Source of the DNA: Sphingopyxis indica
Lineage (GTDB): Bacteria > Pseudomonadota > Alphaproteobacteria > Sphingomonadales > Sphingomonadaceae
Assembly (NCBI RefSeq): GCF_900188185.1
Contig: NZ_FZPA01000003.1
Span: 186,001-250,000 of the forward strand
Direction of reading: 5' to 3'
Length of the DNA: 64,000 bases
Part shown: piece after piece, positions 11,619 to 63,854 of the stretch
Numbering within the stretch: the stretch's first letter is position 1
Layout of the letters: the number at the start of each line of letters is the position of its first letter
Made by a program: the position numbers and the translations under genes
The notes under the pieces: model-generated
Told to the model about the DNA's origin: nothing
Databases searched by the model: none
Seen by the model: the letters and a program-made list of their open reading frames with translations, nothing else

Positions 11619-11711
11619 GTGTGTCCCCGCGAAGGCGGGGATCCATCTCCGACCGGTGCAAGATTGGGCCGTCGGGAGATGGGCTCCCGCCTTCGCGGGA
11701 GCACACGGTTT
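11619..11711. repeat. Palindromic element, family C (intergenic copy)
   Basis: About 92 bp with a branched layout. The outer stem is CGTGTG/CACACG. Inside are three hairpins: CCCCGC-GAAG-GCGGGG, CCATCTCC/GGAGATGG, and CTCCCGC-CTTC-GCGGGAG. A homologous copy with compensating base changes is inserted in frame in mtaB (61138-61227), and a short degenerate form lies at 23836-23876. It separates the zur operon from the fumarase gene. Confidence 0.85.
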
Positions 11712-13771: not shown

Positions 13772-13931
13772 AGCAAATTGCAGGAAATCTGAATCGACCC
13801 GTCTCCCCGAGCGAAGACGAGGGGCTCTGCCGAGCGAAGTCGAGGCTGCGACGCTGCGGTTCTCGCTCCGCTCGAACGAGCCCCTCGTCTTCGCTCGGGG
13901 AGACGGTGCAGATTTCCGGCACGATGCTCTA
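13769..13931. repeat. Palindromic element with TAGAGCA termini, supplying both convergent stop codons
   Basis: 163 bp. The outermost 7 bp (TAGAGCA/TGCTCTA) are a perfect inverted repeat. Inside them lie imperfect arms (GCAGGAAATCTG/CAGATTTCCGG) and a long near-perfect stem, starting CGTCTCCCCGAGCGAAGA on the left, that closes on GAGGGGCTC/GAGCCCCTC. The left TAG is the stop of the VOC gene (plus) and the right CTA is the stop of the DUF481 gene (minus). The TAGAGCA terminus is shared with the 272-bp element at 35293. It probably also ends both convergent transcripts. Confidence 0.85.
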
Positions 13932-19995: not shown

Positions 19996-20616
19996 TTATT
20001 CTCCGATGGCCACCACCTGCGTCGCGAGCCGGTCGACCTCGGCGCGGTCGTGGCTGACATAGAGGATCGGCAGCGCGAGTTCGTCGCGGATGCGCTCGAT
20101 CACCGCCATGATGCCGCCGCGCCGCGCCGCGTCAAGCGACGACAAGGGCTCGTCCATCAGCAATATCTCCGGCCCGCGCAGCAGCGCGCGGCCGATCGCG
20201 ACGCGCTGCGCCTCGCCCCCCGACAGGCTGCGCGGCCAGCGGTCGAGCAGATGCGCGATACCCAGGAAGGCGGCGGCTTCGTCGAGGCTCATCCAGCGCT
20301 CGGCGGGCGCGGCGAGATCGTGGCCATAGAGCAGGTTGGCGCGCACGCGGCGATGCGGAAAGAGCCGCCCGTCCTGAAACACATAACCGATGCGCCGCGC
20401 TTCGGGCGGCAGGTCGATGCCGGCGCCGAACAGCGTCCGCTCGCCGATGCGGATATGCCCGCGGTCGGGGCGGAGCAGCCCCGCGACCATGTTGAGCAGG
20501 CTCGTCTTCCCCGCCCCCGACGGGCCGAACAGCGCGGTCAGGCCGGGACCGGCGGTAAAGGCCGCGGCGATCGTGCGATCGCCGAGCCGTTTCGCGACGT
20601 CGATCTCAATCGCCAT
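19996..20616 (-). CDS. modC: Molybdate ABC transporter ATP-binding protein (short form)
   Basis: 206-residue ABC ATPase energising molybdate uptake. Walker A is GPSGAGKTSLLN, the signature is LSGGEAQRVAIGRALL, Walker B is ILLMDEPLSSLD, and the switch His is in VSHDRAEV. Full ModC proteins are about 350 residues with a C-terminal TOBE/MOP molybdate-binding domain, which is absent here; the gene simply stops after the ATPase core. The start overlaps the end of modB by 11 bp. Confidence 0.9.
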   Translation of the reverse strand: MAIEIDVAKRLGDRTIAAAFTAGPGLTALFGPSGAGKTSLLNMVAGLLRPDRGHIRIGERTLFGAGIDLPPEARRIGYVFQDGRLFPHRRVRANLLYGHDLAAPAERWMSLDEAAAFLGIAHLLDRWPRSLSGGEAQRVAIGRALLRGPEILLMDEPLSSLDAARRGGIMAVIERIRDELALPILYVSHDRAEVDRLATQVVAIGE

Positions 20617-21301
20617 GCCGGACCCTTCCGGCGTGAGTGCGGCGCACGAGCCATTCGGAAAGGATCAGCGCCGCGAGCGACAGCGCGACCGAAAAGAGCG
20701 CGAGCCGCGTCGCCATCGCCTCGGCCCCCGGCACCTGCAACGCCGAATAGATGGCGAGCGGCAGGGTGCGCGTCTCGCCCGGGATGTTCGAAACGAAGGT
20801 GATCGTCGCGCCGAACTCGCCGATCGAGCGCGCGAAGCCGAGCACCAGCGCCGCGAGCACGCCGGGCAGCGCGAGCGGCAGGCTGATCGTCCGGAAGGCG
20901 TGCCAGCGCCCGGCACCGAGCGTGCGCGCCGCGCCCTCGTAGCGCCGGTCGATCCCCTCGATCGACAGCCGCATCGCGCGCACCATCAGCGGCAGCGCCA
21001 TGATCGCCGCAGCGAGCGCCGCGCCGGTCCAGCGGAACATCACGCTGACCCCGAACCAGCTTTCGAGCCAGCGGCCGGCGGGGCCGAGCGGACCGAAGGC
21101 GATGAGCAGGAGCCAGCCGGTGACGACCGGCGGCAGCACCAGCGGCAAATGGACGAGGCCATCGACCAGCAGCCGCCCGGGAAAGCGATAGCGCGCGAGA
21201 ACCCACGCCAGCGCAAAGGCGATCGGCAGCGTCGCGAGCACCGCGACCCCGCCGACCTTCAGCGACAGGACGACGATCCCCCATTCTTCCGCCGACAGCA
21301 T
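20606..21301 (-). CDS. modB: Molybdate ABC transporter permease
   Basis: 231-residue inner-membrane permease with five to six helices. The cytoplasmic coupling motif EGAARTLGAGRWHAFRTISLPLALPGV is the family EAA loop. It is followed by FARSIGEFGATITFVSNIPGETRTLPLAIY, which is strongly conserved in ModB. It lies between modA and modC; a palindromic element occupies the space between modA and this gene, ending 22 bases before the start codon, and the ribosome-binding site looks weak. Confidence 0.93.
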   Translation of the reverse strand: MLSAEEWGIVVLSLKVGGVAVLATLPIAFALAWVLARYRFPGRLLVDGLVHLPLVLPPVVTGWLLLIAFGPLGPAGRWLESWFGVSVMFRWTGAALAAAIMALPLMVRAMRLSIEGIDRRYEGAARTLGAGRWHAFRTISLPLALPGVLAALVLGFARSIGEFGATITFVSNIPGETRTLPLAIYSALQVPGAEAMATRLALFSVALSLAALILSEWLVRRTHAGRVRHGD

Positions 21302-21322
21302 CAGGGCGCGATCATTTTCTGG

Positions 21323-21401
21323 CCGTCATTGCGAGCGCAGCGAAGCAATCCAGAGCGGTTTACGCACACTCTGGATTGCTTCGCTGCGCTCGCAATGACG
21401 G
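21323..21401. repeat. Palindromic element, family D copy 1 (between modA and modB)
   Basis: A perfect 33-bp inverted repeat (outer ends CCGTCATTGCGAGCG/CGCTCGCAATGACGG) around a 13-nt loop CGGTTTACGCACA. The same loop and almost the same arms occur at 26570-26644. In the modABC message it would form a very stable hairpin, which could lower modBC expression relative to modA. Confidence 0.9.
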
Positions 21402-21424
21402 GGTCGGTTTGCATCCACATGCGT

Positions 21425-22195
21425 TCAGGGCGCCGAAAAGCCATAGCGCGCAAAGATTGCGCGGCCCGCCTTCGATACGAGGAAGGCGCGAAAAGCCGCC
21501 GCGTCGGGATGGCGCGAGGTTTTCAGCTGCGCTACCGGATAGCGGATCGGCGGATGGCTCGATGCCGGAAAGACGCCGACCACCCTCACCCGCTTCGATG
21601 CCTTCGCGTCGGTCGCATAGACGATGCCGAGCGGCGCCGCGCCGCGCTCGACGAGCGCCATCGCGGCGCGGACATTTTCAGCGGGCGCGAGCTTGCCCGC
21701 GACGCCGTTCCACACGCCGAGCGCGGTCAGCGCCGCCTTCGCATATTTGCCCGCGGGCACCGCGTCGGGATTCGCCACCGCGAGCCGTCCGCCGCCGAGC
21801 GCGTGCGCGAGCGGAAAGCCGCGCGCCGGGGCGAGCCTTAGCGTGCCCGACGCCGGGCCGATCAGCACCAGCCGGTTGCCGAGCAGCGTCGTGCGCGTGC
21901 CCGCCTCGATCCGCCCCGCCTTCTCGGCCGCATCCATCCACGGCTCGTCGGCCGACAGGAAGAGATCGGCGGGTGCGCCGGCGATGATCTGCCGCGCGAG
22001 CGCCGACGATCCGGCGAAGGAGAGGATCGGCCGCACATGCCCCTTCGCCGCCCAGGCGTCGGCGGCGGCGGTGAGCGATTCCTGAAGGCTCGCCGCCGCG
22101 AGGACGAGCGGGCCGCGCTCGGCGGCGTGCGCGGCGGGCGCGAGCAGGATGGCGGCGAGGAAGAGCATGAACCGGCGGCGAAGAAGGGCGGGCAT
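21425..22195 (-). CDS. modA: Molybdate ABC transporter substrate-binding protein
   Basis: 256-residue periplasmic protein. A signal peptide (RRFMLFLAAILLAPAAHAA, about residues 7-25) is followed by LVLAAASLQESLTAAADAWAAKG, the ModA N-terminal pattern with oxyanion-binding serines, then SFAGSSALARQI, GAPADLFLSAD and GIVYATDA. It binds molybdate or tungstate for ModB. The start is 18 bp after the Crp/Fnr-type regulator stop, suggesting one transcript. Confidence 0.92.
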   Translation of the reverse strand: MPALLRRRFMLFLAAILLAPAAHAAERGPLVLAAASLQESLTAAADAWAAKGHVRPILSFAGSSALARQIIAGAPADLFLSADEPWMDAAEKAGRIEAGTRTTLLGNRLVLIGPASGTLRLAPARGFPLAHALGGGRLAVANPDAVPAGKYAKAALTALGVWNGVAGKLAPAENVRAAMALVERGAAPLGIVYATDAKASKRVRVVGVFPASSHPPIRYPVAQLKTSRHPDAAAFRAFLVSKAGRAIFARYGFSAP

Positions 22196-26440: not shown

Positions 26441-26695
26441 CGTCATGCTGAACTTGTTTCAGCATCCATGGCCCATCCTTTGAACAAGCGCCGCGAAGCT
26501 AGAAAGGGCAGACCATGGACCCTGAAACAAGTTGGCGAATAATCCCTTCGCATCCGTATTCTGGATATCGTCATTGCGAGCGAAGCGAAGCAATCCAGAG
26601 CGGTTTACGCACACTCTGGATTGCTTCGCTTCGCTCGCAATGACAGGGCATATGGATGCAATAGGGATAATCGCCAGACAAGTTCAGGGTGACGA
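26441..26695. repeat. Family F palindrome interrupted by another element
   Basis: The left arm, CGTCATGCTGAACTTGTTTC followed by AGCATCCATGG (26441-26471), pairs with a right arm starting ATGGACCCTGAAACAAGTT, which is broken at 26533 and resumes at 26685 with CAGGGTGACG. Joined, the right arm is the expected complement of the left, with compensating changes in each small hairpin. The interrupting DNA is the 142-bp segment 26534-26675. This fills the gap between the DUF2946 gene and the following hydroxylase gene. Confidence 0.85.
26534..26675. mobile_element. 142-bp non-coding insertion with terminal inverted repeats and near-perfect 9-bp flanking duplication
   Basis: The ends GGCGAATAATCCC and GGGATAATCGCC are imperfect inverted repeats extending about 26 bp. 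The inserted DNA is flanked by AAACAAGTT (26525-26533) and AGACAAGTT (26676-26684), 8 of 9 identical, as expected for a target-site duplication. Its core 26570-26644 is the family D palindrome (31-bp perfect arms, loop CGGTTTACGCACA) also found between modA and modB. It has no coding capacity, so any movement would need a transposase from elsewhere. Confidence 0.75.
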
Positions 26696-28009: not shown

Positions 28010-30977
<2,968 letters not shown>

Positions 30978-35326: not shown

Positions 35327-35564
35327 TTGCGCCAGACAGCCCGCTGGCGAGGCGTCGGCGTGCGGCAGGGGCTGGTTGCCCCTGCAAGCGACGCAACGCT
35401 GTCCAGCGGGCTGTCTGGCGCAACCGCCCGGCGGCGGGCCGATTTTGGCCCATCGCAGCGTCGCTCGTCGCGCACGATGTCCCGCATCGCACGGCTCCTC
35501 GCTTCTCGCGCCGGGCCAAAATCGGCTCCGTCCCGGCGACCCAGATTGGTCGAAAACTGCTCTA
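35293..35564. repeat. 272-bp element, family E copy 2, between arsR and its partner
   Basis: The termini 35293-35320 and 35537-35564 are perfect 28-bp inverted repeats beginning TAGAGCAGTTTTCGACCA. Two inner arms are GCCAGACAGCCCGCTGG/CCAGCGGGCTGTCTGGC and GCCGATTTTGGCCC/GGGCCAAAATCGGC. The conserved core GCACGATG..CCGCATCGC matches the 265-bp element at 15208. It splits the usual arsR-SRPBCC operon, replaces the end of arsR, and carries no gene. Confidence 0.9.
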
Positions 35565-51857: not shown

Positions 51858-51967
51858 CCGTTCGCCCTGAGGAGGGACTGAGCCTTGGCGAAGTCCCGTC
51901 TCGAAGGGCCGCGACGGTGCGCTACTGTCCTTCGAGACGGGACTGCGTCCCTCCTCAGGACGAACGG
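51858..51967. repeat. Palindromic element, family G, between rplS and asd
   Basis: The outer arms CCGTTCG/CGAACGG enclose GAGGAGGGACTGAG/CGTCCCTCCTC and GTCCCGTCTCGAAGG/CCTTCGAGACGGGAC with a loop of about 20 bp. The total is about 110 bp, one long imperfect stem. It resembles the common CTTCGAGACGG-type repeats of sphingomonad genomes. Confidence 0.8.
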
Positions 51968-55109: not shown

Positions 55110-55381
55110 GACGGGCGGGAATAGCGTCGACCGTGCCGACGCGCCACCGGCGCCGCGGCCGCTCCCCCCTTGCGGCGCTATTCCCGTCCAACCTTTTCCC
55201 TGATCGGATACCGCTCAATTTAGGTTGAACCGTAGCCCTGAGCCTGTCGAAGGGCGGCTATCGACGAGAGGCGCCCTTCGACAGGCTCAGGGCTTCGGTG
55301 AGAAACGATTCCGTGGCGAGAAACGATTCCATCTGAAATGGGCACGCCGCTCGGTGACCGCCGGGTGCCCGGCCCGCCGCT
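55110..55381. other. Intergenic stretch between the small gene and rimM
   Basis: A palindrome is present at 55229-55299. The rest (55110-55228) is GC-rich with an imperfect inverted repeat around GGGCGGGAATAGCGTC and GCGCTATTCCCGTCC (55113-55190), which could terminate the small gene. I see no further coding region. Confidence 0.5.
55229..55299. repeat. Palindromic element of the CCTGAGCCTGTCGAAGGG type
   Basis: ACCGTAGCCCTGAGCCTGTC and its partner, ending AGGCTCAGGGCTTCGGT, pair over about 28 bp with a loop of about 16 bases (CTATCGACGAGAGG). The CCCTTCGACAGGCTCAGG unit is a widespread short repeat in alphaproteobacteria. Confidence 0.8.
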
Positions 55382-55945
55382 TTATTCGGCGAAAGCCGCG
55401 TTGACGGTCACACCGTCGTCGCTCCACGCCGGCACCGCCTGCGCATTCATCGGCACCATGAAGCGCTTCGCCTTCTTGCCGCCTTCGCTCGGCCGCTCGA
55501 TTTCGAGGATGTCGCCCGCGCCGAAATTCTCGACCGCGATGACGGTGCCGAGCGCGGTGCCGTCGGTCGAGGTGCAGGCGAGCCCGATCAGGTCGTGATG
55601 ATAATATTCGCCCTCGCCCAGCGGCGGCAGCGCCGACCGCGGGACCGTCAGGACGGTGCCGCGGAGCGCCTCGGCGGCGCTGCGGTCGGTGATTTCGGCG
55701 AATTGCGCGACCGCGCCCTGATTGGCGGGGCGCAGCGATTTCAGCGTGAGCTTGCGCCCGCCGGCATCGAATGCGGAAAAGGCGCGCAAGCCTTGCACGC
55801 CTTCGCCGAATAATTTGAGCCGCACCTCGCCCCGCACCCCGTGCGCGCCGGCGATGGCGGCAAGGGTGACGGGGCGGTCGGCCTTGTCCCCCTCCCGCTT
55901 GCGGGAGGGGTTAGGGGTGGGGCGAGCCGAAGGCGAGCTATCCAT
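55382..55945 (-). CDS. rimM: 16S rRNA-processing protein RimM, start supplied by a repeat element
   Basis: 30S maturation factor that binds S19; 187 residues. RimM core: RPVTLAAIAGAHGVRGEVRLKLFGEGV, FAEITDRSAAEALRGTVLTVPRSALP, and PRC-barrel LGEGEYYHHDLIGLACTSTDGTALGTVIAVENFGAGDILEI. Residues 1-19 (MDSSPSARPTPNPSRKREG) have no family match and are encoded by one half of a family A palindrome. No other ATG, GTG or TTG exists between there and the conserved core, so the start at 55945 seems to be required. AAGGA sits eight bases upstream, also inside the element. Confidence 0.94.
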   Translation of the reverse strand: MDSSPSARPTPNPSRKREGDKADRPVTLAAIAGAHGVRGEVRLKLFGEGVQGLRAFSAFDAGGRKLTLKSLRPANQGAVAQFAEITDRSAAEALRGTVLTVPRSALPPLGEGEYYHHDLIGLACTSTDGTALGTVIAVENFGAGDILEIERPSEGGKKAKRFMVPMNAQAVPAWSDDGVTVNAAFAE

Positions 55946-55993
55946 ATCCCGCGTCCTTGCCCACCCCCGGCCCCTCCCGCAAGCGGGAGGGGA
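55887..55993. repeat. Palindromic element, family A, covering the rimM start
   Basis: Hairpin 1 is CCCCTCCCGC-TT-GCGGGAGGGG (55889-55910) and hairpin 2 is CCCCTCCCGC-AA-GCGGGAGGGG (55971-55992). The spacer holds GAGCCGAAGGCGAGC and, on the minus strand, AAGGACGCGGGATATG, which is the rimM ribosome-binding site and start codon. It fills the rpsP-rimM gap. Confidence 0.92.
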
Positions 55994-55999
55994 GAAGAA

Positions 56000-56578
56000 T
56001 CAACCCTCGGCCTTTTCTTCGCCTTCGGCCGGCGCCGGGCCGCCCTCGGCGACTTCCTCGGCGATCGCGGCGGCGTCTTCGGCCGTCGTTTCGGCGGGCA
56101 CTTCGTCAGCCACCGCGTCGGCAACGGCTTCGGCGGTCTCTTCGCTCTTCACCGAGCCGGTCGCATCCGATTCGGCTTCCTCGGCGACGGGCGCCTCTTC
56201 AGCCGGAGCCGCAGCGGCTTCCTTGGCGGCCTCTTCGGCCTCGGCCAGCTTGGCGGCGCGCTCTTCGGCGCGTTCCTTGGCCTTCTCGCCCGGCTCGGCC
56301 TTCTTGGGGTTGTTGCGCGCGGCGCGTTCCTTGAGACCGGCGGCGTCGAGGAAGCGGGCGACACGGTCGGTCGGCTGCGCGCCGACGCTCAGCCAATGCT
56401 TCGCGCGATCGGCATCGAGCTTGATGCGTTCGGGGTTATCCTTGGCGAGCAGCGGGTTGTAGCTGCCGATGCGCTCGATGAAGCGGCCGTCGCGCGGGGA
56501 GCGCGAATCGGCGACGACGATCTTGTAATAGGGGCGCTTTTTCGAACCGCCGCGCGAGAGGCGAATGGAAGTAGCCAT
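56000..56578 (-). CDS. rpsP: 30S ribosomal protein bS16 with a long acidic tail
   Basis: 192 residues. The ribosomal domain is the first 80 or so ([44 protein letters not shown] ... [22 protein letters not shown]). It is followed by about 110 residues of Ala/Glu-rich, mostly helical or disordered sequence ([43 protein letters not shown]). Many bacteria have only 80-90 residues; sphingomonads carry longer tails. It is first of the rpsP-rimM pair, downstream of ffh. Confidence 0.95.
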
Positions 56579-56614
56579 GATATTGTCCTTCTGAGTCTAA
56601 ACTGGTTGTCCGGG

Positions 56615-58063
56615 TTATTTCTTTTTATTCATCAAATTGGCCAGGTCGGGCGGGATCGCGCCGCCGCCGAGGCCGGGAAGGCCGCCGGCGCCGCCGCCCA
56701 TGCCGCCCATCCCGGGGATGCCGCCGCCGCGGCCGAGCAGCGCGCCGAGCCCCTTGAGCCCGCCCATCTTGCGGATCTTCTTCATCGCGGTGGACATTTC
56801 CTGGTGCATCTTGAGCAGCTTGTTCACCTGCTGAACACTCGTCCCCGATCCGTTCGCGATGCGGATCTTGCGCTTGGCGTTGATGATCGCCGGGGCCGCG
56901 CGCTCCTTGGGGGTCATCGACCCCATGATCGCATCGAAATGGATCAGCATCTTGTCGTCGGCGCCGCTCTGCGCCATCGCCGCCTGCGCCTTCTTGAGAC
57001 CGGGGATCATCCCCGCGAGCGCGCCGATGCCGCCCATGCGGCGCATCTGATTGAGTTGGGTGCGAAGATCGTCGAGGTCGAACTGACCTTTGGCCATCTT
57101 CTTCGCCATCGCCTCGGCCTCTTCGGCCTGGATCGTCTCGGCGGCGCGCTCGACGAGGCTAACGACGTCGCCCATGCCGAGGATGCGGCCGGCGATACGC
57201 GACGGCTGGAAGAGTTCGAGTCCGTCGAGCTTTTCGCCCGTGCCCGCGAATTTGATCGGCTTGCCGGTGACCGCGCGCATCGACAGCGCGGCACCGCCGC
57301 GCGCATCGCCGTCCATGCGGGTCAGCACGACGCCGGTGAGCGGCACCTGCTCGGTGAAGCGCTGCGCGACCTGAACCGCGTCCTGGCCGGTCAGGCTGTC
57401 GACGACGAGCAGGGTTTCGGCGGGGTTCGCGGTGCGCGCCACCGCCTGCATCTCGTCCATCAGCTGCTGGTCGACGTGGAGGCGGCCTGCGGTGTCGAGC
57501 ATGAGGACGTCATAGCCCTGCAGCTTCGCCGCCTGCATCGCACGGCTCGCGATTTCGGTGGGCTGCTGACCCGCAACGATCGGCAGGGTCGCGACGTCGA
57601 TCTGCGTGCCAAGCACAGCAAGCTGTTCCTGCGCGGCGGGGCGATTGACGTCGAGCGACGCCATCAGCACCTTCTTGCGCTCCTTGTCCTTCAGCCGCTT
57701 GGCGATCTTCGCGGTCGTGGTCGTCTTACCCGAGCCTTGCAGGCCGACCATCATGATCACTGCGGGCGGGGTGACATTGAGGTCGAGCTCGGCGGCTTCG
57801 GAGCCGAGCATCTCGGTCAGCGCGTCGCTGACGATCTTGACCACCTGTTGCCCCGGCGTGACCGAACGCAGGACATTCCGGCCGATCGCCAGTTCGGTGA
57901 CCTGATCGACGAAGCTGCGCACGACGGGCAGCGCGACGTCGGCTTCGAGCAGCGCGATTCGCACCTCGCGCATCGCGGCGCGCACGTCGGCCTCGGTCAG
58001 CGCACCGCGGCCGCGGAGCTTCCCGAAAACATCGCCAAGCCGAGTGCTCAGACTGTCGAACAT
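56615..58063 (-). CDS. ffh: Signal recognition particle protein Ffh
   Basis: SRP GTPase delivering membrane proteins; 482 residues. NG domain: GLQGSGKTTTTAKIAKRLK (G1), DTAGRLHVDQQLMDEM (G3), DSLTGQDAV, TRMDGDARGGAAL (G4). The M domain is Met/Gly-rich with RIANGSGTSVQQVNKLLKMHQEMSTAMKKIRKM (RNA-binding) and a GMGGMGGGAGGLPGLGGG tail. The start at 58063 (MFDSLSTRLGDVFGKLRG) is standard. The receptor gene ftsY is 4 kb away. Confidence 0.96.
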   Translation of the reverse strand: MFDSLSTRLGDVFGKLRGRGALTEADVRAAMREVRIALLEADVALPVVRSFVDQVTELAIGRNVLRSVTPGQQVVKIVSDALTEMLGSEAAELDLNVTPPAVIMMVGLQGSGKTTTTAKIAKRLKDKERKKVLMASLDVNRPAAQEQLAVLGTQIDVATLPIVAGQQPTEIASRAMQAAKLQGYDVLMLDTAGRLHVDQQLMDEMQAVARTANPAETLLVVDSLTGQDAVQVAQRFTEQVPLTGVVLTRMDGDARGGAALSMRAVTGKPIKFAGTGEKLDGLELFQPSRIAGRILGMGDVVSLVERAAETIQAEEAEAMAKKMAKGQFDLDDLRTQLNQMRRMGGIGALAGMIPGLKKAQAAMAQSGADDKMLIHFDAIMGSMTPKERAAPAIINAKRKIRIANGSGTSVQQVNKLLKMHQEMSTAMKKIRKMGGLKGLGALLGRGGGIPGMGGMGGGAGGLPGLGGGAIPPDLANLMNKKK

Positions 58064-58306
58064 GCGTCCTTTTACCCTTCTGACGACCCGCAACGCAAAA
58101 GACGCCGGTGAGCGAAACCTCGCCAACCAGCGGCTATCCGTGGACAGATTTTCCGTCGCGGATGTCTTGTGCGCCCCTCCGCATGATGCGGACGGACGCG
58201 GCGCCCTTACGCCAATGCGCGCGCAAAGGCAAGCGCGGGCCGCGGCGCACTTAACGCAAATTTCACCGCTTGCGGCGCAAACAGACCGCGACTGTGGGGA
58301 AATTCA

Positions 58307-59935: not shown

Positions 59936-60024
59936 TTTCCCCTCCCTTCCAGGGAGAGGAGAATGAGAAGGCCGCACCCGCGTCGCTAGACTTCGCGCCC
60001 GCGCGCTCCTAAATGCGCGACACT

Positions 60025-60831
60025 ATGGCGGATCGCTTCACCAAGATGCATGGCCTCGGCAACGACTTCGTCGTGATCGACGCGCGCGAAGACGCGGTCG
60101 AGATGACCGCGGCGCGCGCGCACGCGATCGCCGACCGGCGCCATGGCATCGGCTGCGACCAGCTGATCCTGCTCGAACCGTCCGAAAAGGCCGATGTGAA
60201 GATGCGCATCTTCAACGCCGACGGCGGCGAGGTCGAGGCGTGCGGCAATGCGACCCGCTGCGTCGCGACGCTGATCGGCAAGCCCGCGGTGATCGAGACG
60301 CTGGGCGGGATGCTGCGCGTCAGCCCCGCCGACGGCGGCGCCGAGGTGACCTTGGGCGAGCCCGCCTTCGACTGGGAGCAGATCCCGCTCGCGATGCCGA
60401 TGGACACGCGCGACATGCCCGTCGCGTGGGACGAGCTCGAACATGGCGCGGCGGTCAATGTCGGCAATCCGCACATCATCTTCTTCGTCCCCGAAGCCGA
60501 TGCGGTGGCGCTGACCGACCTCGGACCGCGGATCGAGACCGACCCGCTGTTCCCCGAGCGCGTCAACGTCAATGTCGCGAGCCTCGACGGCCCCGACCGG
60601 CTGCAATTGCGCGTCTGGGAGCGCGGCGTCGGGCTGACGCAGGCGTGCGGCACCGGCGCCTGCGCGACCGCGGTCGCCGCGATCCGTGCGGGGCTCGCAA
60701 AATCGCCGGTCACCATCTCGCTGCCCGGCGGCGACCTCGTCATTCGATGGCGCGATGGCGAGCCGATCGTGATGAGCGGCGCGGCGACGCGCGTGTTCGA
60801 GGGTGAGACCGACTGGGCGCGCTTCGGATGA
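60025..60831 (+). CDS. dapF: Diaminopimelate epimerase
   Basis: Interconverts LL- and meso-diaminopimelate for lysine and peptidoglycan; 268 residues. The catalytic Cys pair is in VEACGNATRCVA and QACGTGACATAVAA; also FTKMHGLGNDFVVID and GNPHIIFFV. The ATG at 60025 (MADRFTKMHGLGND) is preferred; one at 60013 adds four residues. No clear Shine-Dalgarno for either. It overlaps mtaB by four bases (ATGA). Confidence 0.95.
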   Translation: MADRFTKMHGLGNDFVVIDAREDAVEMTAARAHAIADRRHGIGCDQLILLEPSEKADVKMRIFNADGGEVEACGNATRCVATLIGKPAVIETLGGMLRVSPADGGAEVTLGEPAFDWEQIPLAMPMDTRDMPVAWDELEHGAAVNVGNPHIIFFVPEADAVALTDLGPRIETDPLFPERVNVNVASLDGPDRLQLRVWERGVGLTQACGTGACATAVAAIRAGLAKSPVTISLPGGDLVIRWRDGEPIVMSGAATRVFEGETDWARFG

Positions 60832-62144
60832 GCGCTCGCGCCGGGGTCGAGGTCGTCAATTTCGGATGCCGGCTGAACATCGCCGAGGGCGAAGCCGTGC
60901 GCGCGGCGGCGATCGCGGCCGGCGCGGCGGACACGATCGTCTTCAACAGCTGCGCGGTGACCGACGAAGCGGTGCGGCAGGCGCGGCAGGCGGTGCGGCG
61001 GGCCTTGCGCGAACGGCCGGGCGCCGAAGTGGTAGTGACGGGGTGCGCCGCGGAACTCGAACGCAGCGCCTTCGAAGCGATGGGCGCGCGGGTGGTCGGA
61101 AACGACGCCAAGGGTCTGGCGGAGAGCTATCAGGCAAGCGTGTCCCCGCGCAGGCGGGGACCCATCTCCGGCCGGTTCGACATCGCACCGGCGGGTGATG
61201 GGCTCCCGCCTCCGCGGGAGCACACGGATTTATTCAAGGCCGTGGGTCCCTACGCCCCCGCCCTTTCGGGCGCCGACCATGCGCGCGCATTTCTGGGCGT
61301 CCAGACCGGCTGCTCGCACAGCTGCACCTTCTGCGCGACCGTGCTCGCGCGCGGCGCCGCGCGGTCGGCCACCGTCGAAGCGGTCGTCGAGGCCGCGCGG
61401 ATTGCGCTCGACCGCGGACAGCGCGAGATCGTGCTCACCGGGGTCGATCTTGCGAGCTATGGCGATGACAGCGGCACCAGCCTCGCCGCGCTGGTCGAGG
61501 CGCTGCTCGCGCTGCCGGTCGAGCGGTTGCGCCTCTCGTCGCTCGACCCCGACCGGATCGACGATGCGCTGTTCGCGCTGCTCACCGGAGAAGCGCGGGT
61601 GATGCCGCACGTCCATCTGTCGCTGCAGGCGGGCGACGACATGATCCTGACGCGCATGAAACGGCGCCATCGCCGCACCGATGCGGTGCGGCTCGTCGAA
61701 CGGCTGAAGGCCGCGCGCGGCGAGATTGCGATCGGCGCCGACCTGATCGCCGGATTTCCGACCGAGGATGACACCATGTTTGCCAATACGCTGGCGCTGA
61801 TCGACGATGCCGACATCGTCTTTGGCCATATCTTTCCCTACAGCCCGCGCGCCGGCACCGCCGCCGCGCGGATGCCGCAGGTCGGCCGCGCGGCGGCGCG
61901 CGAACGCGCCGCGCGGCTGCGCGAGGCTAATGCCCGGCGCCGTCACCGCTGGATGGACGCGCAGCGCGGGCGCGAAACCGCGATGCTCGTCGAGCGCGAC
62001 GGGCGGAGCGGTCATGCGGAGAATTTCGCGCCGCTGACCCTCGCGGCGCCCGCTGCGCCGAACAGCATCGTCCGCGTGCGGATCGACGCCCGCGACGACG
62101 ACCGGATGCACGCGACGATGGTGGCGACGGGGATCGCGGCATGA
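60828..62144 (+). CDS. mtaB: tRNA t6A37 methylthiotransferase MtaB with in-frame palindromic element
   Basis: Radical SAM enzyme adding a methylthio group to t6A37 of tRNA; 438 residues. The N-terminal MTTase domain has three cluster cysteines (NFGCRLN, FNSCAVTDEAVRQAR, VTGCAAE). The radical SAM motif is TGCSHSCTFC (CxxxCxxC), and a C-terminal TRAM-like domain ends VRIDARDDDRMHATMV. Residues about 104-134 (SVSPRRRGPIS ... PPPREHTDL) are a family C palindrome inserted in the linker between the two domains. dapF overlaps by 4 bp and ftsY by 4 bp. Confidence 0.93.
   Translation: MSARAGVEVVNFGCRLNIAEGEAVRAAAIAAGAADTIVFNSCAVTDEAVRQARQAVRRALRERPGAEVVVTGCAAELERSAFEAMGARVVGNDAKGLAESYQASVSPRRRGPISGRFDIAPAGDGLPPPREHTDLFKAVGPYAPALSGADHARAFLGVQTGCSHSCTFCATVLARGAARSATVEAVVEAARIALDRGQREIVLTGVDLASYGDDSGTSLAALVEALLALPVERLRLSSLDPDRIDDALFALLTGEARVMPHVHLSLQAGDDMILTRMKRRHRRTDAVRLVERLKAARGEIAIGADLIAGFPTEDDTMFANTLALIDDADIVFGHIFPYSPRAGTAAARMPQVGRAAARERAARLREANARRRHRWMDAQRGRETAMLVERDGRSGHAENFAPLTLAAPAAPNSIVRVRIDARDDDRMHATMVATGIAA
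61138..61227. repeat. Palindromic element, family C, inside mtaB
   Basis: 90 bp (30 codons). Outer arms GCGTGT/ACACGG, hairpins CCCCGC-GCAG-GCGGGG and CTCCCGC-CTCC-GCGGGAG, and inner CCATC/GATGG with CCGGCCGGT/ACCGGCGG. It aligns along its length with the intergenic copy at 11619-11711, stems conserved through paired changes. Confidence 0.92.
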
Positions 62145-63067
62145 GCGGCGCAAGCTGGAGCGAGCGGCTGTTCGGCGGCCTCCGCCGCACGTCGGAGCGC
62201 CTCGGCGAAAATCTGTCGGGCCTTACGGGCAAGTCGCGCCTCGACGACGAGGATCTCGACCGGATCGAAGAAGCGCTGATCACCGCCGACCTCGGCCCCG
62301 CGATGGCGGCGCGTATCCGCGAGCGGCTCGCGGCGCGGCGCGACGCGGTCGCGGGCAATGTCGAGGAACTGAGGAAAATCGTCGCCGACGAGATTGCCGC
62401 GGTGCTGCGCCCGGTCGCCGAACCGCTCGAAATCGACGCCTTTCCGCGTCCGCAGGTGATTTTGGTGATCGGCGTCAACGGATCGGGCAAGACAACCACC
62501 ATCGCCAAGCTAGCGCATCTGTTCCAGGAACAGGATTATGGCGTGATGCTCGTCGCGGGCGACACGTTCCGCGCCGCCGCGATCGGGCAATTGAAGGTCT
62601 GGGCCGAACGGCTCGGGGTGCCGATCATGGCGGGGCCAGAGGGGGGCGACGCCGCGGGGATCGTCTTCGACGCGGTCAAACAGGCGACCGCGACGGGCAT
62701 CGACGTGCTGATCGTCGACACCGCCGGGCGGCTTCAGAACAAGCGCGAGCTGATGGACGAACTCGCCAAGATCAAGCGCGTCCTCGGCCGCCTCAACCCC
62801 GCCGCGCCGCACGATGTCGTGCTCGTGCTCGACGCGACGACAGGGCAGAATGCACTGTCGCAGATCGACGTGTTCCGCGAGGTCGCGGGGGTCACCGGCC
62901 TGGTGATGACCAAGCTCGACGGCACCGCGCGCGGCGGCGTCCTCGTCGCCGCGGCCGAGCGCCACGGCCTTCCCATCCACGCGATCGGCATCGGCGAGAC
63001 GTTGGGCGATTTGCGTCCCTTCGACGCCGACGAGATCGCCGGCATCATTGCAGGAAATATCCGATGA
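62141..63067 (+). CDS. ftsY: SRP receptor FtsY
   Basis: GTPase docking partner of Ffh at the inner membrane; 308 residues, the short form without the long acidic A domain. G motifs: GVNGSGKTTTIAKLA, AGDTFRAAAIGQLKVWAERLGVPIM, DTAGRLQNKRELMDELAKI, DATTGQNALSQI, TKLDGTARGGVLV. The start ATG overlaps the mtaB stop (ATGA). Membrane targeting is probably through the N-terminal amphipathic stretch. Confidence 0.96.
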   Translation: MSGASWSERLFGGLRRTSERLGENLSGLTGKSRLDDEDLDRIEEALITADLGPAMAARIRERLAARRDAVAGNVEELRKIVADEIAAVLRPVAEPLEIDAFPRPQVILVIGVNGSGKTTTIAKLAHLFQEQDYGVMLVAGDTFRAAAIGQLKVWAERLGVPIMAGPEGGDAAGIVFDAVKQATATGIDVLIVDTAGRLQNKRELMDELAKIKRVLGRLNPAAPHDVVLVLDATTGQNALSQIDVFREVAGVTGLVMTKLDGTARGGVLVAAAERHGLPIHAIGIGETLGDLRPFDADEIAGIIAGNIR

Positions 63068-63735: not shown

Positions 63736-63854
63736 TCTCCTCTCCCGCTTGCGGGAGGGGCAGCGAGACTTGCGAGCTTGCTCGCTAGTCGCAGCGGGGT
63801 GGGCCATTGCGACGTCGCTGCCCACCCCCGCCCCCTCCCGCAAGCGGGAGGGGA
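63736..63854. repeat. Palindromic element, family A, after yciB
   Basis: Hairpin CTCCCGC-TT-GCGGGAG at the left and CCCCTCCCGC-AA-GCGGGAGGGG at the right. The spacer has CGAGACTTGCGAGCTTGCTC and CCCACCCCCG, sharing parts with the copies at 36178 and 55887. It lies between convergent yciB and the carbonic-anhydrase-type gene and may end both transcripts. Confidence 0.9.

Follow-up and report, generated by a model that had tools for sequence, protein, structure and literature searches.

REP-like palindromic elements in the inter-domain linker of the tRNA methylthiotransferase MtaB in Sphingopyxis and other Sphingomonadaceae

How does a palindromic repeat come to lie in frame inside a tRNA-modifying enzyme, and why at one point between its two domains? 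The question is raised by mtaB of Sphingopyxis indica, located at 60828..62144 on the forward strand of the 64,000-nucleotide stretch of genomic DNA analysed here (the window). As judged by its sequence, the 438-aa product is MtaB, a tRNA (t6A37-C2)-methylthiotransferase with an MTTase domain and a radical SAM domain. It scores 343.7 bits against NCBIfam TIGR01579, which is slightly below the equivalog threshold (curated cut-off 357.05) although this is the top-scoring model, and 272.9 bits against TIGR00089, above the cut-off of 251. The Pfam domains present are UPF0004 and Radical_SAM. The top fold matches of the protein are MtaB, MiaB and RimO, the closest being 9a6d, titled MTAB-YVFG, which we take to be MtaB of B. 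subtilis. Cysteines C14, C42, C73, C162, C166 and C169, presumably the cluster cysteines, show no variation in 51 sequences. The gene is flanked on the same strand by dapF on its 5' side (60013..60831, TIGR00652) and ftsY on its 3' side (62141..63067, TIGR00064). The two domains are joined by a linker of 40 codons (61131..61250, forward strand), bounded by two conserved Tyr codons and delimited by orthologue comparison and pLDDT.

Within this linker lies an 86-bp palindromic element (61140..61225), in forward orientation and in frame with mtaB, translated as VSPRRRGPISGRFDIAPAGDGLPPPREH. A search of the same genome with positions 61128-61237 as query, in which 40 of 112 candidates were scored, returned 53 rows, 13 of which were opposite-strand duplicates, leaving at least 40 distinct places. 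The best other copies are 93% identical, and the weakest of the 40 places has an E value of 3.6e-22. Thirty aligned genomic copies share a sharp 86-bp unit, which corresponds to 61140-61225 in the window and is a non-integral number of codons; all of them start with GTGTCC or GTATCC. Folding their consensus gives a single, nearly perfect hairpin (-74.7 kcal/mol) with two smaller hairpins inside; the consensus carries the hairpin TCCCCGC GAAG GCGGGGA followed by CCCA. In the mtaB copy, sub-hairpin 1 (TCCCCGC GCAG GCGGGGA, forward strand) is read from the sequence at 61143..61160, and sub-hairpin 2 (CTCCCGC CTCC GCGGGAG, forward strand), at 61203..61220, is identified from sequence and from covariation across genomes. 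A REPIN consists of two REP units that stand in inverted order and pair into a long hairpin. The reading frames of the element are mostly open, with 146 of 180 copy-frames lacking a stop versus 57% in base-shuffled copies. The 20 nt on the 3' side of the mtaB element (61226..61245, forward strand) are like the flanks of other genomic copies (position-weight score 4.5 versus -5.9 +/- 4.6 for shuffles, p 0.012); the 20-nt 5' flank shows no such likeness (p 0.305). At three loci (L019, L020 and L302) the copies are bracketed by a further inverted repeat, with sequence like TCTTTGA.. on one side and ..TCAAAG(A/G)TGATC on the other, so that the 86-bp unit looks nested inside another palindrome.

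A sequence-only reading of the window had reported a palindrome family in the MtaB linker, homologous to an intergenic element at 11619-11711. That observation is confirmed, and its interpretation is partly supported. The two stretches are 86% identical over 91 bases without a gap, and the second contains a copy of the 86-bp element (11621..11706, forward strand) that lies outside mtaB and is not intragenic by a frame test. A similarity confined to these two loci is excluded by the 40 places found in the genome survey, with best other copies at 93%. The insert had been put at exactly 30 codons, which holds approximately: the net gain is 28-30 codons, but the repeat unit measures 86 bp, and the linker has 40 codons versus the usual 10-12. 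It had further been said that the stems differ in sequence but stay paired. The overall hairpin does survive, the mtaB copy (-67.7 kcal/mol) and the copy at 11621-11706 (-67.0 kcal/mol) each forming one long hairpin, but the 12 differences between the two window copies change no pair in a compensatory way; at pair 12-73 one copy has A-T and the other C-C, and pair 28-57 is T-A versus T-T. Among 29 own-genome copies, upkeep of an RNA structure by compensation was not borne out either, with 6 double-change cells versus 4.3 +/- 1.7 in shuffles.

The structural permissiveness of the site, also proposed from the sequence, agrees with the AlphaFold model of the window protein. Mean pLDDT is 89.4, and insert residues 106-123 and 125-138 fall below 50, so that the insert is predicted to be a disordered stretch linking two confident domains.

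We sought mtaB in 80 genomes of the genus Sphingopyxis, including that of the window, and obtained 76 usable orthologues; one genome whose contig ends at the linker (G021) and three with partial or distant matches (G065, G067, G075) were left out. Classed by eye, the linker holds repeat-derived sequence in 46 of the 76 and is empty in 30, one of which (L101) may hold a hairpin fragment. The occupied linkers comprise 16 with the element in forward orientation, 7 in reverse orientation, 5 with a longer mixed form, 2 with a single hairpin, 12 with K, a CTTCGACAAGCTCAG family unrelated to the 86-bp element, and 4 with K variants or remnants. Linker length is 10-12 codons in 25 of the unoccupied orthologues and 16-21 in the other five, and ranges from 16 to 49 codons in the occupied ones. 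The reverse orientation was seen by BLAST in L051, which matches the element on the opposite strand (86% over 80 nt). Among the 120 closest database proteins, sorted by regular expression, 41 carry the forward form, 32 K, 10 the reverse form and 6 the mixed form, while 4 are empty, 16 other and 11 could not be parsed. Within a class the element starts at a nearly constant distance from the Tyr codon, 9 nt for 11 of the 16 forward inserts and 18 nt for the reverse and mixed ones. Those forward inserts that are recognisable share one reading frame. Some shorter forms resemble in-frame deletions (P0003, P0005, L069 and L095). In the linker of genome G070 (L041), an extra hairpin-like stretch, GTGTCGGGAGTCACGTGCCTCCCGACAC, breaks into the first hairpin of the insert, perhaps as an element within an element. 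None of the occupied/empty sister pairs among the orthologues is resolved to the base, and target duplications are not demonstrable because the sequence within the linkers is too divergent.

The same point of MtaB holds other palindromes in 10 of 40 other Sphingomonadaceae, a proportion that is not a random-sample frequency because the 40 are the best-scoring of 107 matching genomes. Two of these inserts are of the CGTCATCCC type (L207, L216) and six of the GAGCGAAGTCGAG type (L206, L209, L210, L214, L221, L242); L208 is a CCCCTCCC dimer and L226 a relative of K. Extra copies of the insert were searched for in four of the ten genomes (G107, G100, G149 and G188) and in one K genome (G012). Among the matches listed, G107 has several near-full-length extra copies (94%, 90% and lower), G100 many (about 81-92%) and G149 one (79%), and G188 and G012 have half-length matches of 94-100%. 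Sixteen more distant MtaB loci (L160-L163, L165-L176), judged by eye, show no such insert peptide.

Mid-gene insertions were screened for by requiring a single open frame in which the GC3 signal is coding-like over at least 25 codons on each side of the element, a definition under which insertions within about 25 codons of a gene end are uncounted. By this GC3 frame test and by reading, mtaB is the sole clear mid-gene insertion among the 30 best own-genome copies, and in genome G062 none of 20 other copies (from the 21 best other places) is a clear one. Five candidates passed the screen and were rejected by eye, namely L010 and L013 in the window's genome and L263, L267 and L273 in G062; four of them resemble spurious open frames, and the L267 copy is located 5' of the probable start codon.

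The sequence-only reading had also held that three palindrome families each invade a tRNA- or DNA-modifying enzyme. This stands for MtaB and for LigA, the NAD-dependent DNA ligase, whose open frame (28010..30349, reverse strand) was used as a comparison gene and contains, in frame, a dimer of another family, CCCCTCCC..GGGAGGGG (29645..29740, reverse strand). For a third enzyme it is not supported. The near-identical long palindromes with CATTGCGAGCG ends lie at 21323-21401 and 26570-26644 (arms of 33 and 31 bases), and the first was rejected as an enzyme insert since the open frame around it, 20387-21841, matches no NCBIfam or Pfam family. A LigA match runs through the insert site in 6 of 77 genus genomes (G000, G073, G016, G071, G040 and G036). 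A readable site was obtained for 18 of the 30 LigA loci fetched, including that of the window: 15 are without insert, the window and L305 share one family, and L308 has a different repeat peptide, of the PAFAGTT type, at the same point. LigA is therefore a second, weaker trap, with few loci occupied and one site shared by two different repeat peptides. The window also has a CCCCTCCC dimer at 55889-55992, near the 5' end of the open frame 55814-58111, and more strong inverted repeats, their arms 13-29 bases long, at 13799-13906, 35327-35423, 51866-51959, 55234-55294 and 63742-63850. A gathering-level Rfam search of the window gave no match.

We consider it probable that REP-like palindromes have been inserted recurrently into a permissive MtaB linker, with later decay, in-frame loss of segments or replacement. 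According to this reading, the window carries a REP-like element of two inverted hairpin units, forming a hairpin of about 86 bp, that would have been inserted in frame between the MTTase and radical SAM domains, and several unrelated palindromic families would have entered the same linker repeatedly, in either orientation, during the evolution of the Sphingomonadaceae. REP-like dimers would insert, or be retained, at a disordered linker that may take up 28-30 additional residues with little harm, and would be translated through in an open, hydrophilic frame. The linker would act as a trap because it tolerates added residues. The inserts would later decay, lose segments in frame, as P0003, P0005, L069 and L095 suggest, or be replaced.

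The distribution over the genus bears on this reading and on its strongest rival. Linker state has little phylogenetic inertia. Nine states mapped on a tree of about 4 kb of flanking sequence, with the linker removed, need 36 changes versus 41.6 +/- 1.9 after label shuffling, where one or more of the 500 shuffles also reached 36, the lowest value. Occupied versus empty needs 15 changes on the same tree versus 23.9 +/- 2.1 shuffled (lowest 17). With four classes, 30 changes are needed on a tree of mtaB alone, versus 38.3 +/- 2.1 shuffled, 33 on a tree of the flanking genes and 33 on one of the nearest 150 columns on each side, these three trees being built from 71 of the 76 rows (L102-L106 left out). 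All are quick trees with weak branches, which raise the number of changes (23 of 73 inner branches are open on the flank tree), so that the figures are not counts of events.

The rival holds that there were only a few old insertions, one forward, one reverse and one of K, and that the mosaic arose through exchange of mtaB alleles or short tracts between species together with uneven decay. The near-constant Tyr-codon spacing within each class and the single frame of the forward inserts speak for it, although such spacing fits either a preferred insertion point or a few insertions that later spread. Same-class pairs also show slightly greater likeness over the first 100 columns upstream of the linker (+1.6%, a value that none of 200 shuffles reached) and, on the downstream side, over columns 200-900 (p 0.01 and 0.005). 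There is no excess likeness between 100 and 200 columns upstream (p 0.495), nor within the first 200 downstream (p 0.31 and 0.14). One transfer of mtaB between Sphingopyxis species is probable, as the mtaB cores of L053 and L047 are 94.8% identical yet stand apart on the flank tree. Whole-gene transfer as the sole cause is rejected, since the tree of mtaB alone still needs its 30 changes and movement of whole alleles leaves most of the mosaic unexplained. Unrelated families at the same point in other genera also argue against a few old insertions, as does the likeness of the window insert to repeats of its own genome. Over 86 bp it is 86-93% identical to all 29 other aligned own-genome copies, versus 70-87% to the 15 other forward mtaB inserts, which belong to other species; this closeness would result equally from a recent insertion and from conversion by copies in the same genome. 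The insert of G071 (L278), for its part, has a hairpin-2 subtype unlike that of the 7 other G071 copies compared.

Matches to the 86-bp element elsewhere in the genome have a median of at least 10 in occupied genomes (n=46) versus at least 2 in empty ones (n=30; Mann-Whitney p 8e-6), an association that is not significant after phylogenetic pairing (median p 0.125, the counts being lower bounds). Seven inserts of the 86-bp family are kept by genomes where no more than 0-2 further matches were scored, which favours old insertions, and two unoccupied genomes hold at least 8 matches. Taken together, we regard a few old insertions as unlikely and infer that new insertion, or conversion by genomic copies, is the main source of turnover, over allele exchange between species.

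A second rival is that the insert is kept for a function, as an inter-domain hairpin in mRNA or DNA (co-translational pausing, or control of the dapF-mtaB-ftsY transcript) or as a useful linker peptide. The peptide itself is nearly unconstrained and its amino acids evolve almost neutrally. Over five insert-sharing pairs, pooled by hand with L053/L076 and the identical linkers of L067/L073 left out, linker pN/pS is 0.81 (nonsynonymous 25/432.5, synonymous 12/167.5), versus 0.16 in the 840 nt downstream (nonsynonymous 82.2/3065, synonymous 187.8/1134.8). Synonymous change, which is lower in the insert than in the downstream stretch (rounded counts, Fisher p 8.5e-4), is in favour of a function, but structure, conversion by other copies and a later arrival are all conceivable causes. 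Folding is better than that of mono-shuffled sequence for most occupied linkers; seven (L044, L064, L072, L049, L058, L067 and L073) fold no better than shuffles (z > -0.5). Hairpin 2 covaries across genomes, pair 65-80 being C-G in 18 copies and T-A in 10, and pair 68-77 C-G in 23, T-A in 3 and G-G in 2. Five genomes contributed to this count, which uses 28 of the 30 cross-genome copies and includes mtaB copies and an apparently duplicated locus (L274/L279). The repeat family by itself would be expected to show such covariation too; it is not seen among the own-genome copies of the element. The persistence of inserts where the element family is nearly absent would suit a function. The 30 of 76 orthologues classed as empty, L101 perhaps with its fragment, would not, and neither would the variation of the inserts in sequence, length, family and orientation. 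A retained function thus appears improbable to us. That the similarity arose by chance, or as a coincidence of coding in GC-rich DNA, has a negligible probability in view of the 40 genomic places and the E value of the weakest, nothing having been found in its favour.

Among known systems, REPIN/RAYT (PMC3116915, PMC2817692) is one of the closest. REPINs likewise have two inverted units, one long hairpin and a high dispersed copy number. An intact RAYT or Y1 transposase was not found in the window's genome, which has one IS200-like Y1_Tnp fragment with a stop, and the 1.4 kb around this fragment contain no 86-bp element, unlike a RAYT flanked by its repeats. RAYT was rejected as the mobiliser because only 15 of 80 genus genomes have a Y1_Tnp match, the other 65 being without one.

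The closest precedent is found in the intragenic GTAG and CGTC REPs of Di Nocera et al. 2013 (PMC3733652), of which, according to the text of that paper, over half are dimers or grouped repeats coding for 20-30 aa. They are frequent there in genes of DNA-repair and RNA enzymes, among them tRNA synthetases and tRNA pseudouridine synthase B of S. alaskensis and the DNA ligase of O. terrae, and different REPs lie at about the same recB site in two Xanthomonas species. According to the text no transposase is known for CGTC REPs, and it leaves open whether REPs of this type still move, and by what. The palindromes described here are likewise short and in frame in genes, and the element shares with CGTC REPs a hairpin with a loop of 4-5 nt and a CCA-like tail (GAAG loop, CCCA after it). 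Unlike them, the window element starts with GTGTCC and is without an unpaired terminal CGTC, while the other-genus inserts L207 and L216 do carry CGTCATCCC. The recurrence in MtaB, in contrast to the cases in the text of PMC3733652, concerns a single linker occupied by several families in tens of species, and MtaB is not named in that text among the genes with intragenic REPs.

The palindromic elements of Rickettsia and Wolbachia, by their published description, are also dispersed palindromes in frame in conserved genes. RPEs of 100-150 bp are inserted in frame without loss of the ORF, in solvent-exposed regions (PMC3767692, PMC4224334), which resembles the flexible position predicted for the MtaB insert from its pLDDT below 50. 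Insertion hotspots for RPE-4, -6 and -7 are discussed in PMC3767692, and Rickettsia orthologues that each have an insert at the same locus are explained, in the sections of these papers drawn on here, mainly by common descent. The present case concerns another lineage and differs in that sister species vary in presence, family and orientation. Nematomorpha mitochondria have perfect inverted repeats inside protein-coding genes, with both arms coding (PMC6649704); those repeats resemble the MtaB element in this respect, but are mitochondrial and, as described there, are not a dispersed family recurring at one site. The literature search found no paper on a palindromic insert in MtaB or a methylthiotransferase; Additional file 3 of PMC3733652 could list one.

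The kind of phenomenon is already known, since intragenic REPs (PMC3733652) and the Rickettsia/Wolbachia elements do likewise, as far as those descriptions go, and the MtaB linker is best read as an extreme case of it. What is new, as far as our searches show, is that several palindrome families have struck a single linker throughout a bacterial family, and that sister species differ. The linker probably stands out because insertions at other places in genes are removed by purifying selection. More tentatively, the linker may be an insertion hotspot as well as a trap, recording moves of transposase-less REP dimers, many of them within one genus and to one preferred point, with a hairpin that is transiently selected in the gene, as the slow synonymous change would suggest; we hold this to be possible but doubtful.

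As the linker is empty in 30 of 76 genomes and variously filled in the others, it offers presence/absence polymorphisms for the question of whether CGTC-type REPs are still mobile. It shows repeat DNA turning into new protein sequence within an otherwise conserved enzyme, and it allows a clean test of whether a disordered insert of 28-30 residues matters to a radical SAM tRNA modifier.
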